Shown: piece after piece, positions 2,375 through 12,549 of the stretch
Layout: each line of letters starts with the position of its first letter
Position numbering within the stretch: position 1 is the first letter of the stretch
From: Sphaerobacteraceae bacterium
GTDB taxonomy: Bacteria; Chloroflexota; Chloroflexia; Thermomicrobiales; Thermomicrobiaceae
NCBI GenBank assembly: GCA_007695115.1
Contig: REEK01000128.1
Span: forward strand, 1-59,080
Length of the DNA stretch: 59,080 bases
Direction: 5' to 3'
Position numbers and translations under genes: made by a program
Notes under the pieces: generated by a model
Database searches by the model: none
The model's input: only the letters and a program-made list of their open reading frames with translations
Told to the model about the DNA's origin: nothing

Positions 2375-2614
2375 GTAGGCTCCCTGAACGAACACCTCCG
2401 GCCGTTGCCATCTCGTCACATATCCACCCCTGTACGAACGACAGGCGCAGGTCTGGCGTCGTGCAGTTACGCACTCTCCGCAGAAATCCGCGCATAAAAT
2501 CACTGTACATGTCGCCGCTATCCTGTTAGGCTAGGGAACGTCTCGGGACTCATGCGCGTTCCTGAGACACAGGGGGACTGAAACGTACAGGGGTTGGGCC
2601 AGGGGAGCACCAGG

Positions 2615-3508
2615 GTGCCAATAGTGTCGCGACTTCCGGGGCGCGTACGCGTGGTCGAAGTCGGCCCGCGGGATGGCTTGCAGAACGAGCCGATCCACGT
2701 TGCCACGGAACACAAAACCGCATTTGTCGACAGTTTGTCTGTCGCCGGCTGTCCCGTTGTCGAAGTTACTAGCTTCGTCAGCCCGAAAGCCGTACCTGCG
2801 ATGGCAGACGCAAGCGACGTCTGCCGATCCATCACCCACCACGCAAATGTCCGCTACCCCGTGCTGGTTCCGAACGAGCGCGGTTACGATCGCGCCCGTG
2901 AGGCCGGATGCCGCGCAATCGCGCTCTTCACGTCTGCCTCGGAAACGTTCAGTCAGAACAACGTGAACGCCACCATCGATGAAACATTCGCGCGCTTTCG
3001 TCCCATTGTGGAACGCGCGCAGCTGGATGGTGTCTGGATCAGGGGCTACGTGTCCACGGCAACCAACTGCCCATACACCGGCGATGTTGAACCGGAAGAC
3101 GCAGTGCGCGTTGCCGAGCGATTGTTCGAGATCGGCTGCCACGAAGTGGCCCTGGCGGATACGCTCGGCCGGGCAACGCCACTCCAGATGAACGCACTTC
3201 TGGAGCTGGCCTGCCAGCGCATGCCCGTGGAACGGCTGGCCCTGCACCTGCACGATACCGATGGCCTGGCCATCGCCAATGTCATGATCGGCCTGGATCA
3301 TGGCATCACGACGTTCGATGCCGCGGCCGGCGGCCTCGGTGGTTGTCCGTTTGCTCCTGGAGCAGCCGGAAACCTGGCAACAGAGAAACTCCTCAAGCTC
3401 GTACACGGGCTGGGAATTGAAACAGGAATTGATGAAATCGGCGTATTGAACGCAATAGCTCAGCTTCGCGCGGTTTATCCGGAGATCGGATATCGACATG
3501 CCGCGTGA
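2615..3508 (+). CDS. mvaB: Hydroxymethylglutaryl-CoA lyase
   Basis: TIM-barrel lyase of the HMGL family that splits HMG-CoA into acetyl-CoA and acetoacetate, the last step of leucine degradation. Family hallmarks are visible: VGPRDGLQNE near the N terminus (substrate and metal Arg-Asp), the metal-binding LALHLHDTDG, and the Cys-containing signature GGLGGCPFAPGAAGN. I chose GTG 2615, which has AGGGGAG seven bases upstream and gives 297 aa, the usual length. A TTG at 2594 is in frame but has no better ribosome site. No other leucine-pathway genes are adjacent. A related aldolase specificity cannot be fully excluded. Confidence 0.88.
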   Translation: MPIVSRLPGRVRVVEVGPRDGLQNEPIHVATEHKTAFVDSLSVAGCPVVEVTSFVSPKAVPAMADASDVCRSITHHANVRYPVLVPNERGYDRAREAGCRAIALFTSASETFSQNNVNATIDETFARFRPIVERAQLDGVWIRGYVSTATNCPYTGDVEPEDAVRVAERLFEIGCHEVALADTLGRATPLQMNALLELACQRMPVERLALHLHDTDGLAIANVMIGLDHGITTFDAAAGGLGGCPFAPGAAGNLATEKLLKLVHGLGIETGIDEIGVLNAIAQLRAVYPEIGYRHAA

Positions 3509-7210: not shown

Positions 7211-7603
7211 ATGCTCGATGCCAAAATACGGGACATTCTGGAGAAGACCTACTTCGGTGTTCTCGCCACGATTAACAAAGATGGAACACCTCAGCAGACA
7301 GTGATGTGGTACGAACTGATTGGCGACCGCATCATGATGAACACGGAAGCAGGGCGGCTCAAGGAGCACAACCTGAACCGTGATCCCAGGGTCTCGGTCT
7401 GCATCGAAGACAAGTACAACTACGTCACGCTGTCTGGCCGGGCAACCCTCGATTATGATCCAGAACGCTCCCAGGCTGACATCGCTCGACTGGCTCGCCG
7501 GTACCATCAACCAGAGAAAGCCGAACAACTCGTCGACAGTTTCCAGAAGGAAAAGCGGATTACGATCTGGATCGACATCGAGAACGTGGTCACGAAGTTC
7601 TGA
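7211..7603 (+). CDS. PPOX-class F420-dependent oxidoreductase
   Basis: 130-aa split-barrel flavin/F420-binding protein. The opening FGVLATINKDGTPQQTVMWYELIGDRIMMNT and the later YVTLSGRATL match the Rv1155-type PPOX family that uses reduced F420. It lies 41 bases upstream of the F420 ligase gene cofE, which supports F420 rather than FMN as cofactor. The physiological substrate is unknown. A GGAAGGA ribosome site is 13 bases upstream. Confidence 0.82.
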   Translation: MLDAKIRDILEKTYFGVLATINKDGTPQQTVMWYELIGDRIMMNTEAGRLKEHNLNRDPRVSVCIEDKYNYVTLSGRATLDYDPERSQADIARLARRYHQPEKAEQLVDSFQKEKRITIWIDIENVVTKF

Positions 7604-7644: not shown

Positions 7645-8403
7645 ATGGCAGCAGATATTCGAGTTCTCGGAGTTGATGGTATTCCGGAGGCACGCGCCGG
7701 AGACGATAGCGCCCAGCTGGTGATCGATGGCCTGAACCATTCCGGCATCACGCTGGAAGATAACGACGTCGTGGTTGTCACGCACAAGCTGGTCTCCAAA
7801 GCGGAGGACCGGCTGGTCGATCTGCGCACCATTACTCCATCGGCCTTTGCAGAACGGCTGGCCAGCCAGTACGAAAAAGACCCCCGGCAGATCGAGGTCG
7901 TGCTTCAGCAGAGCACCCGGATCGTCAAGATGGATCGGGGCGTGATTATCGCCGAGACGCCCCACGGGTTCATCTGCGCTAACGCCGCGGTGGATGCCTC
8001 CAACGCGCCGGAGTCCGAGCATGTAGTCTTGCTACCGCTCGATCCAGATGCCACTGCTCAACAGATTCGAACCCGACTCCAGCAGGAAAGCGGCAAACAG
8101 ATCGCCGTGATCATCACTGACTCCTTCGGTCGACCCTGGCGAGCCGGGATCATCAATATCGCCATCGGCGTGGCCGGGATGTCGCCATTTCATGACTATC
8201 GTGGCGAGTACGACGAGCACGGCTACGAGCTGCGGGCAACCGTTATCGCCGCGGCCGACGAACTCGCCTCTGCCGCAGAGCTGGTGATGGGCAAGCTCGA
8301 CCGGCGGCCAGTTGCTGTTGTCCGGGGGTATGATTACGCACACAGCGATACCGCAAGCGGCCGGGAACTGGTAATGGATCCAGCCAAGGATCTCTTCCGA
8401 TAG
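7645..8403 (+). CDS. cofE: Coenzyme F420:L-glutamate ligase CofE
   Basis: Adds the first gamma-linked glutamates to F420-0 using GTP. The 252-aa length is typical. Family features include VVVTHKLVSKAEDR near the N terminus, ITDSFGRPWRAGIINIAIGVAGMSP in the centre, and the C-terminal ELASAAELVMGKLDRRPVAVVRGY. There is no FbiB-type nitroreductase extension. It follows a PPOX gene closely, and two more F420-type reductases are encoded in the window, so the cofactor is clearly used here. Other F420 biosynthesis genes are not in the window. Confidence 0.92.
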   Translation: MAADIRVLGVDGIPEARAGDDSAQLVIDGLNHSGITLEDNDVVVVTHKLVSKAEDRLVDLRTITPSAFAERLASQYEKDPRQIEVVLQQSTRIVKMDRGVIIAETPHGFICANAAVDASNAPESEHVVLLPLDPDATAQQIRTRLQQESGKQIAVIITDSFGRPWRAGIINIAIGVAGMSPFHDYRGEYDEHGYELRATVIAAADELASAAELVMGKLDRRPVAVVRGYDYAHSDTASGRELVMDPAKDLFR

Positions 8404-8436: not shown

Positions 8437-8775
8437 GTGCCATTGATCATGCGCCGAACCGGTTTCGATTTCTTCCCCGCTGCCCGTTGTACACACTGCG
8501 GTACTGAGTTCGATCGAGCCAATGCCGGCTACGCAGCCTGGCCGGTCGACGTCCTCACCAATCCCCCATTCGTTGATGTCCAGTTGCTCTGTTGCGATGA
8601 CTGTCTCGACGCTTTTAGCGCCGAACATGAGGACGAAGGCGAGTGGATCGCCACTCCGTTTTCCGTCTATCTGGCAAACCTCATCGTCACGCTGGGGATC
8701 GATATCGATGCCGTGCTCGACACCGAGCAGGCCAGTGTGGCGGCGGAGAACACTCGCGATCAAGCCCCGGACTGA
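8437..8775 (+). CDS. Zinc-ribbon-like hypothetical protein
   Basis: 112-aa protein with two cysteine pairs (CTHCG near residue 18 and CCDDC near residue 52) that could form a zinc ribbon, an acidic middle and a C-terminal helix. GTG 8437 is preceded by AGGAGGTGA. It follows cofE by 33 bases in the same direction and precedes the selenoprotein gene, so it may belong to the F420/redox operon. The function is unknown. Confidence 0.6.
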   Translation: MPLIMRRTGFDFFPAARCTHCGTEFDRANAGYAAWPVDVLTNPPFVDVQLLCCDDCLDAFSAEHEDEGEWIATPFSVYLANLIVTLGIDIDAVLDTEQASVAAENTRDQAPD

Positions 8776-8865: not shown

Positions 8866-9342
8866 ATGACGACCACTTCCCCGGGCGCCCAGGCACCATC
8901 GCTCAACATGCTCGACGCCGCTGGGCAAACCCACAATCTTCGCGACTACGTCGGTCACAAGAACGTTGTCCTCGTGATGCTTCGGGGCCTCTGGTGACCA
9001 GTCTGCCGCGGGCATCTGACGCAGTTGCGTCAGGATTATGACAAGTTTGTCCAGCGTGACACCGAAGTCATCGCGATTGGCACAGACAAACCGGACAAAA
9101 TGGCCAGCTTCTGGGAAAAAGAACAACTCCCCTTCCCGGGCATCCCTGATCCAGACAAAGAGCATCTGGACATCCTCGGTCAGGAATTCAAACTCCTGAA
9201 GTTCGGACGCATGCCGGGCGTGATCACCATCGGCAAAGACGGGGTGATCCATAATGCGCACTACGGCAACCACGCCGGTGACATTCCTTCCAATGAGGAT
9301 GTCCTGGCGATGATCGACGAGATGAATCAGGCGGCCGACTAG
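8866..9342 (+). CDS. Peroxiredoxin-like (AhpC/TSA) selenoprotein, UGA-encoded Sec at codon 44
   Basis: A 158-aa thioredoxin-fold AhpC/TSA-type protein if the in-frame TGA at 8995-8997 is read as selenocysteine. Reading gives APSLNMLDAAGQTHNLRDYV, then VVLVMLRGLW-U-PVCRGHL, the spot where relatives have WCPxC. The frame continues without interruption to TAG 9342 through DTEVIAIGTDKPDKM and FGRMPGVITIGKDGVI, all normal family features. ATG 8866 has GAGAGGG upstream. A perfect hairpin begins 18 bases after the TGA. Expected role: peroxide or thiol-disulfide reduction with a Sec-Cys (UxxC) pair. Without recoding the gene would be a pseudogene, but the TGA position, intact frame and hairpin argue otherwise. 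Confidence 0.85.
8995..9036 (+). promoter_or_regulatory. Sec UGA codon and bacterial SECIS hairpin
   Basis: TGA at 8995-8997 is followed by CTGACGC-AGTT-GCGTCAG (9016-9033), a perfect 7-bp stem. The stem extends by two pairs around a bulged G (to 9014-9036). The loop starts 25 bases after the UGA and has G as its second base. Both the spacing and the loop G fit the usual bacterial SECIS rules for SelB binding. Confidence 0.75.
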
Positions 9343-10522: not shown

Positions 10523-12235
10523 TTACAGAACGTTGACGCTCGTTATCGTTTTCGAGTCCAGTTCCACGCCGTGGGCGGATGCGGTTACCGTGTACTGGTC
10601 GATACTGATCAATCCTCCAACGTCCCGATCGAAACTGTAACTGGTGGACTGTCCGGGCCCGAGCGTGACCGTCGTTTCGTCGCTCCAGTCGCTGTGATCA
10701 GTTGCCTCCAGTGTGACCTCAAGATCAACATCGCTCTCGTTTGTCAGGGTTCCGTTGAGCGTTAGCAGGTTCGAACCAATGAGATTGACTTCAAGAGCCC
10801 CCTCCAGTCCGAGATCCACGTTGAGCACGTCTCCGAGATTCGGGAGGATATCCACAACGACAATCGTTCCGGAGTCGACCACCGTGTCGCCGATCAGCGC
10901 AGTTACGGTGCATACATCGATTGACAACAGACCACTCGTCTGATGCTCGAGCTCCACTTCCAGGTTGCCACTTGCATCGATGTTGACCAGTGCGTCGTCG
11001 ACTTCAGCACCGTCGCAGGTCATGACCAGCTGAACGTCACCGGCCCAGGCACTCGGGTTGTTGAGGTTGACTGTGGCGGTCAGTGTCGGGGAGCCAAGCA
11101 GAGAGACGTCTGCATGGATTCCCAGTCCGAGGTTGTCGGGAGGTGAAACGCCATTTCCATTGTCACCGTCGTCGATGCCATTTCCATTGTCGTCGTCGAT
11201 GCCATTGCCGTTATCGTCGTCGACACCGTTCCCGTTGTCATCGTCGGCGCTGTCATCGCCGGTTCCTGGTGGCGGTGCACCGTTGCCGGGTCCACCATTT
11301 CCTGGCCCGCCGGTACCATCATCAGCAGAGTCGTCGGACGGTGGCGGATCGTGATCCACCGGATAGCCGTAGCGCCACTCGAAGTAGTGTCGGCCAACGT
11401 TGCCAGCTTCGACCTTCCAGCCCTCATCGTTACCTGGGGTGTAGGTCAGAACTCGACGCTCGAACGCTTGCAGCAGCACCCACTGATGATCCCCACCGAC
11501 CGGAACATGTGCCCAGTACGGTTCGGTAATCGGGCGGCCAGTGGCATACACCGGGTTCAGAAACATCGCGCCCTGAACATACTCACCAGATTCGTAGACG
11601 AGCCCGGAGGATGTCATGAACTCCCAGAACGGCTCGGCCACGTTGTGCCCCGTAATGTCATCGAAGTGGGCCGTGTAGACGCCCTGATCGGCGAGGCCGG
11701 GGTCTTCACTGATCTCGCCGTGTTGATCGACGATCTGGGTGATCGCATCCTGTCCACGGTCATCTACCGGATCGAGCAACCCGGCAAGATCGGCATAGCT
11801 CGGTCCGGTTTCCCCGTCCCGATCGCCAGCCACATTGTTGGTCTCGGCTTCATGCGGCTCCCAGGAATCTTCACCGATCTGCATACGACCGGTCACCATC
11901 TCGACAACCAGCAGACCGTTGGTGACATACCAGACGGAATCCTCTGGCTCGCCAGTCAGATTAATCTCCATACGGGATTTGTCGTAGTACTGTACTTCTC
12001 GCTGGCCGTCGGGAGACTCAAGATACTGTTCCCACATCGGCCCGGTATTGGCGCCAGGGCCCCACATCCACGTTCGATCCACCTGATCGGTATCCACCGG
12101 CCGATCCGTGCGTTCCCACGTTCGTTCGAAGTGCTCATTTGCGGGATCGACCGTATCCGCCTGAACGGCGAAGACCGGTATCATGAGCGCCAGAAGCGCA
12201 AAAATCGATATCAGCGTGCGTCGGCTTGCTCCCAT
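10523..12235 (-). CDS. Large secreted protein: shared extracellular module, acidic repeat linker, two beta-sandwich-like domains
   Basis: 570-aa exported protein. A signal peptide (LISIFALLALMIPVFAVQA) is followed by a roughly 270-residue module with VQYYDKSRMEIN, VWYVTNGLL, PITEPYW, VPVGG, ERRVLTYTPGN and GRHYFEW. This module also forms the C-terminal half of the D,D-carboxypeptidase at 0.7-2.4 kb. A Pro/Gly/Asp linker then carries four NGNG-(I/V)-D repeats reminiscent of calcium-binding acidic linkers. The C terminus has two copies of an Ig/CARDB-like unit, each ending around SIDxCTVTA or SIDQYTVTA. ATG 12235 is preferred on ribosome-site spacing (GGGATGG); ATG 12244 is also possible. It is probably a cell-surface or wall protein of unknown ligand. 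Confidence 0.8.
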   Translation of the reverse strand: MGASRRTLISIFALLALMIPVFAVQADTVDPANEHFERTWERTDRPVDTDQVDRTWMWGPGANTGPMWEQYLESPDGQREVQYYDKSRMEINLTGEPEDSVWYVTNGLLVVEMVTGRMQIGEDSWEPHEAETNNVAGDRDGETGPSYADLAGLLDPVDDRGQDAITQIVDQHGEISEDPGLADQGVYTAHFDDITGHNVAEPFWEFMTSSGLVYESGEYVQGAMFLNPVYATGRPITEPYWAHVPVGGDHQWVLLQAFERRVLTYTPGNDEGWKVEAGNVGRHYFEWRYGYPVDHDPPPSDDSADDGTGGPGNGGPGNGAPPPGTGDDSADDDNGNGVDDDNGNGIDDDNGNGIDDGDNGNGVSPPDNLGLGIHADVSLLGSPTLTATVNLNNPSAWAGDVQLVMTCDGAEVDDALVNIDASGNLEVELEHQTSGLLSIDVCTVTALIGDTVVDSGTIVVVDILPNLGDVLNVDLGLEGALEVNLIGSNLLTLNGTLTNESDVDLEVTLEATDHSDWSDETTVTLGPGQSTSYSFDRDVGGLISIDQYTVTASAHGVELDSKTITSVNVL

Positions 12236-12549
12236 CGGACCCATCCCTTCGAGGGTATAACCTGTCAGATCATCCAGAATTCGACTCTGGGCCTGACATT
12301 GCACCTGTTCGTAATCGTTACTGTTTGGTTACGCACAATACGTACCCTTATCCTACCTTTTAGCCCGAATACCCTATACATGGGTACAATCGTACTTATT
12401 TGCACAATTCATTGCGGTAGCACGTGCAATTCCCCTCGGCCTGACAACTGCGGAGCTACCACGCCTGACTCGCCAGCACTGGAACAATGGCTGATAATCT
12501 TGTGAGAAGAGGTGGCAATGAATCACTACCATGCAGAGAGCGATCAGAC

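Follow-up and report, generated by a model that had tools for sequence, protein, structure and literature searches.

A predicted selenocysteine codon in a peroxiredoxin-like gene of a Thermomicrobiaceae genome

An in-frame UGA in a peroxiredoxin (Prx)-like gene of a Sphaerobacteraceae bacterium is very probably decoded as selenocysteine (Sec), with a probability that we put at about 0.96. The gene lies at 8866..9342 on the forward strand of the window, which is the whole 59,080-nucleotide stretch of DNA analysed here (contig REEK01000128.1), and the UGA is its codon 44. We infer insertion in the cell from computed evidence, namely the open frame, its conservation, a hairpin downstream of the UGA, the covariation of this hairpin, the decoding machinery in the genome and the predicted fold. 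SelB with Sec-tRNA(Sec), bound at the AGUU hairpin 18 nt downstream, would decode UGA44 as Sec and would thereby place a U44-P-V-C47 motif where the first long helix of a thioredoxin/peroxiredoxin fold begins.

The gene and its conservation

The frame starts with ATG 8866, which is preceded by a purine-rich, ribosome-site-like stretch as the original prediction had held, and runs through the TGA at 8995..8997 and a further 114 sense codons to the stop codon TAG at 9340-9342. With TGA translated as Sec, the product has 158 residues and the active site RGLW-U-PVC, in which Sec44 is the first position of the UPVC motif, and it matched PF00578 (AhpC-TSA) in a profile search with 84.4 bits (E 7.8e-24, cut-off 26 bits). 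Its UxxC partner Cys47, encoded by TGC at 9004..9006 of the same strand, is an invariant Cys in the alignment and would have the resolving role. No signal peptide was seen by eye in the selenoprotein, which is probably a single-domain, cytosolic protein.

Homologues were found in most genomes of the same family and across the phylum. In a search of 60 relatives, genomes of the same genus and family yielded homologues whose TGA occupies this very position. With a cut-off of E <= 1e-18, homologues turned up in 46 of 400 sampled genomes of the phylum, and almost all had one TGA. Codon 44 is TGA in 52 of the 53 core loci that form the close homologue group and TGC in the remaining one, counts that include duplicates of the same gene and are not independent as the homologues are related, and the partner codon for Cys47 is always TGC or TGT. 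The claim that the TGA occupies the codon where relatives have the first Cys of the motif, for which a look at the homologous residue had been proposed, is thus borne out. The TGA and the hairpin recur in dozens of homologues with protein identities down to 33-45%, and the frame upstream of the UGA is conserved in the homologue alignment as well.

For the part after the UGA, comparison with a 96% homologue from a named Thermomicrobiaceae metagenome assembly gave a dN of 0.015 and a dS of 0.118, and comparison with a 62% homologue gave a dN of 0.26 and a saturated dS of 2.8. Judged from these sequence comparisons, this part is under purifying selection, which together with the recurrent TGA and hairpin indicates that the arrangement is not a chance one. 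The core homologue bearing TGC instead of TGA (L087 1092-1565) is located in a genome, G288, in which selA was matched in two overlapping pieces and is perhaps frameshifted; since these selA matches are retained, G288 does not qualify as a clear-cut loss of Sec. At L047, L081, L082 and L083, same-order relatives have PF00578-like proteins with two in-frame TGAs in a WUPTU (UxxU) motif; their AGTT hairpin keeps the same distance, and the frame stays open for >200 further codons.

The Thermomicrobium roseum orthologue (L118 3001-3129; NC_011961.1 545266-545394) is recorded in RefSeq as WP_012643006.1, a 42-residue hypothetical protein ending at the Sec UGA, and the 113 codons of conserved frame past this UGA are without a listed gene in the gene table used, which is incomplete. 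The predicted selenoprotein is a clean and well-conserved one, and T. roseum exemplifies how standard gene calling can cut such genes at the UGA.

The SECIS hairpin and the selenocysteine machinery

A 7-bp stem with an AGTT loop had been predicted to begin 18 bases past the TGA, and it was found exactly there on the forward strand, as CUGACGC-AGUU-GCGUCAG with its stem at 9016-9022 / 9027-9033 and its loop at 9023-9026. Bacterial SECIS elements are described by a loop of 3-9 nt, a stem of 4-16 bp, a G in the first two loop positions, a distance of 16-37 nt from the UGA and an MFE <= -7.5 (PMC13188914). All of these constraints accommodate the present hairpin, which has the 4-nt loop AGUU (G second, then U), a stem of 7-8 bp, a distance of 25 nt between UGA and loop and an MFE of -12.0 kcal/mol. 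An Rfam scan of the window gave no match at the gathering score.

The hairpin also covaries, so the proposed SECIS check came out in its favour on both counts. Among 44 sequences in the 25-nt register, distant relatives included, 93.2% of the cells pair, a percentage inflated because the sequences were selected for forming 4 or more stem pairs here. The double changes are free of this inflation: five of the seven stem pairs have changes on both sides, and 24 double-change cells were observed versus 5.3 in shuffles, with 0 of 500 shuffles reaching 24. Controls with slid partners destroyed the signal and gave far lower values.

As the protein is conserved across the hairpin too, the stability of a 36-nt stretch in each gene was compared with synonymous recodings following the codon usage of that gene. 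The hairpin stretch was more stable than its recodings, with a mean z of -1.81 in 49 genes, all below zero, versus a mean z of -0.17 in 243 control windows taken from these genes. For the Leu codon that bridges loop and stem, 42 of 48 genes use TTG, compared with 99 of 790 Leu codons elsewhere in those genes, a choice explained by the hairpin. The Cys homologues L087, L042, L045 and L051 have no hairpin.

A second register places the AGTT loop 9 nt closer to the UGA (+17), with the stem formed from other codons; the resulting spacing of 16 nt is the smallest that the published range allows. It occurs in L065, L066, L070-L072, L074, L075, L089, L093 and L094 and in the distant L039-L041 and L043, family f16 included. 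The RNA element is kept while its place in the protein shifts, and the covarying AGUU hairpin, present in dozens of homologues, offers a natural data set on the reading of SECIS elements by SelB in this phylum.

The Sec machinery, on which the original prediction had made its reading depend, is complete in the source assembly (3.68 Mb, 98.5% complete). Profile searches matched selA (E 1.3e-128), selB (E 5.8e-108) and selD (E 7.7e-110), the last carrying an in-frame TGA of its own, and selC was found as a tRNA-Sec of 74.7 bits with the anticodon TCA (UCA). The genome also encodes a second Prx-like protein (L078 950-1435, contig C107, minus strand) with an in-frame TGA at a WUPPC motif; the TGA is likewise present in a same-genus genome (L079 of G002). 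The hairpins of this gene and of selD differ in sequence from the SECIS of the UPVC gene. When the SECIS covariance model was run against the genome, the UPVC gene scored 71 bits and the other matches were weak, at 19.6 bits and below; the in-frame TGA contexts read among these were without a long open protein, and the matches were taken as chance.

Readings of the UGA that dispense with Sec fare poorly against these data. That an ordinary Cys gene has been hit by a nonsense mutation or misread in sequencing would be in line with the TGC at codon 44 of L087, but dozens of independent assemblies, as well as the reference record of T. roseum, keep the TGA and the SECIS covaries, so that conservation of the TGA refutes this reading in practice and leaves it a very slight probability. 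Plain readthrough, or a restart at TTG 9025 that yields a 105-residue ORF without Sec insertion, is scarcely more probable: the mechanical ORF list does start at this TTG, but the product would be devoid of the active site, the conserved frame extends to the part before the UGA, and the TTG is accounted for by the hairpin. Least probable, to the point of being negligible, is an alternative code with TGA read genome-wide as Trp or another residue, for which no support was found. The window ORFs 725-2374, 2594-3508 and 8437-8775 end in TGA and contain TGG, and TGA being the ordinary stop of neighbouring ORFs, the code is not reassigned; the presence of tRNA-Sec and selB and a homologous residue that is Cys rather than Trp argue in the same direction.

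Active site and gene neighbourhood

An AlphaFold2 model based on 34 homologues, with Cys in place of Sec, reached a pLDDT of 94.1 and a pTM of 0.90 and positioned U44 directly before the first long helix (45-63). The closest solved folds are those of Bcp/PrxQ and AhpE (TM 0.82-0.87), followed at a lower level by ResA (TM 0.70-0.77). In profile alignments, the P, T, C and R of peroxiredoxins correspond to R40, U44, C47 and P117, which means that three of the four catalytic residues of the classical signature (PxxxT/SxxC plus Arg) are replaced. The CxxC of ResA and of the thioredoxin-family protein 3hdc aligns to U44-x-x-C47, and the RLP of 3hdc aligns to R115-M-P117. The motif is of the UxxC kind rather than TxxU/TxxC, with U44 and C47 in invariant columns; the residues invariant across the group further include R40, P89, D95, G114, P117 and D139.

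The loss of the peroxiredoxin P, T and R, combined with the alignment of U44 and C47 to the CxxC of ResA and 3hdc, favours a UxxC cycle with Sec as the nucleophile. Thiol:disulfide rather than peroxidase chemistry, following a ResA/thioredoxin-like UxxC mechanism, is therefore the likelier prediction from sequence and model, although this assignment is weaker than that of Sec itself because the closest folds are peroxidases and not ResA. Sec44 would most likely be the attacking nucleophile and Cys47 the resolving residue in a selenenylsulfide cycle, the substrate may be a disulfide, with a peroxide as another possibility, and regeneration would be carried out by a thioredoxin-type donor.

A true peroxidase selenoprotein, in which Cys47 is peroxidatic as in PxxxTxxC and Sec44 is resolving, or in which Sec44 itself reduces peroxide, is possible but distinctly less probable. 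The best folds and profile matches, both Bcp/PrxQ and AhpE, speak for it, as do the alignment of C47 with the peroxidatic Cys of 2ywn and an OsmC gene nearby in T. roseum; it is at odds with the replaced active-site Pro, Thr and Arg, and the more reactive Sec would be unusual at a resolving position.

Upstream of the gene and on the same strand, the window contains cofE for F420-0:gamma-glutamyl ligase at 7645..8403 (PF01996, E 3.9e-76) and a PNPOx-type gene at 7211..7603 (PF01243, E 1.9e-18), a relative of which in T. roseum is annotated 'PPOX class F420-dependent oxidoreductase'. One or both of these genes lie close to the selenoprotein gene throughout the genus and also in T. roseum and several further genomes of the family. 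Such neighbours occur in many Thermomicrobia, in varying orientation, and an asparaginase-2 family gene follows the selenoprotein gene in some genera. A functional tie to the cofE and F420-type neighbours is a lead only. It enters a broader and rather improbable proposal, according to which a phylum-wide UxxC Prx-like subgroup has a nearly fixed AGUU loop in either register (25 or 16 nt past the UGA, on different codons) and the Thermomicrobia gene, near cofE and an F420-type oxidoreductase, may have an F420-linked redox partner. Elsewhere in the window, the two large ORFs 725-2374 and 10523-12304 have a similar C-terminal stretch (VWMRVPVGGESQDVLVQCFERRCLTYTP / YWAHVPVGGDHQWVLLQAFERRVLTYTP).

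Comparison with known redox proteins

Prx-like selenoproteins with a UxxC motif have been described since 2005 (PMC1088965, PMC1794560, PMC13188914), termed 'Prx-like protein' (PMC1088965) or 'Prx-like 1' (PMC2398784). Prx-like thiol:disulfide oxidoreductase selenoproteins are assigned to PF00578 with UxxC/UxxU motifs (Table 1 of PMC13188914; PMC1794560), and PMC13188914 marks the family as predicted. The UPVC gene fits these known Prx-like UxxC selenoproteins, a placement made by fold and motif rather than by alignment to the published reference WP_010940744.1: the Pfam fold, the Sec-first UxxC and the occurrence in Sec-decoding bacteria are shared, whereas the gene is part of a subgroup that extends across the Chloroflexota/Thermomicrobiota phylum. 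Discussion of this subgroup was not found in the papers searched, nor were papers on Thermomicrobia selenoproteins in the open-licence literature; the supplementary legend to an AhpC Sec figure includes a protein identifier from Sphaerobacter thermophilus (PMC5330540).

The best NCBIfam match is the SelL-related redox protein NF040769 (E 3.4e-21), but its 75.7 bits fall below the curated cut-off of 120 and its best stretch covers only residues 9-100. PrxQ/Bcp and AhpE share the overall fold and have their peroxidatic Cys at Cys47, and differ in retaining the catalytic Pro, Thr and Arg that are replaced in the UPVC protein. ResA-type thiol-disulfide oxidoreductases and 3hdc, in contrast, bear their CxxC at the position of the UxxC, and the Pro of 3hdc coincides with P117; the fold match to ResA is lower than that to the peroxidases, and the UPVC protein has Sec in place of the first Cys.
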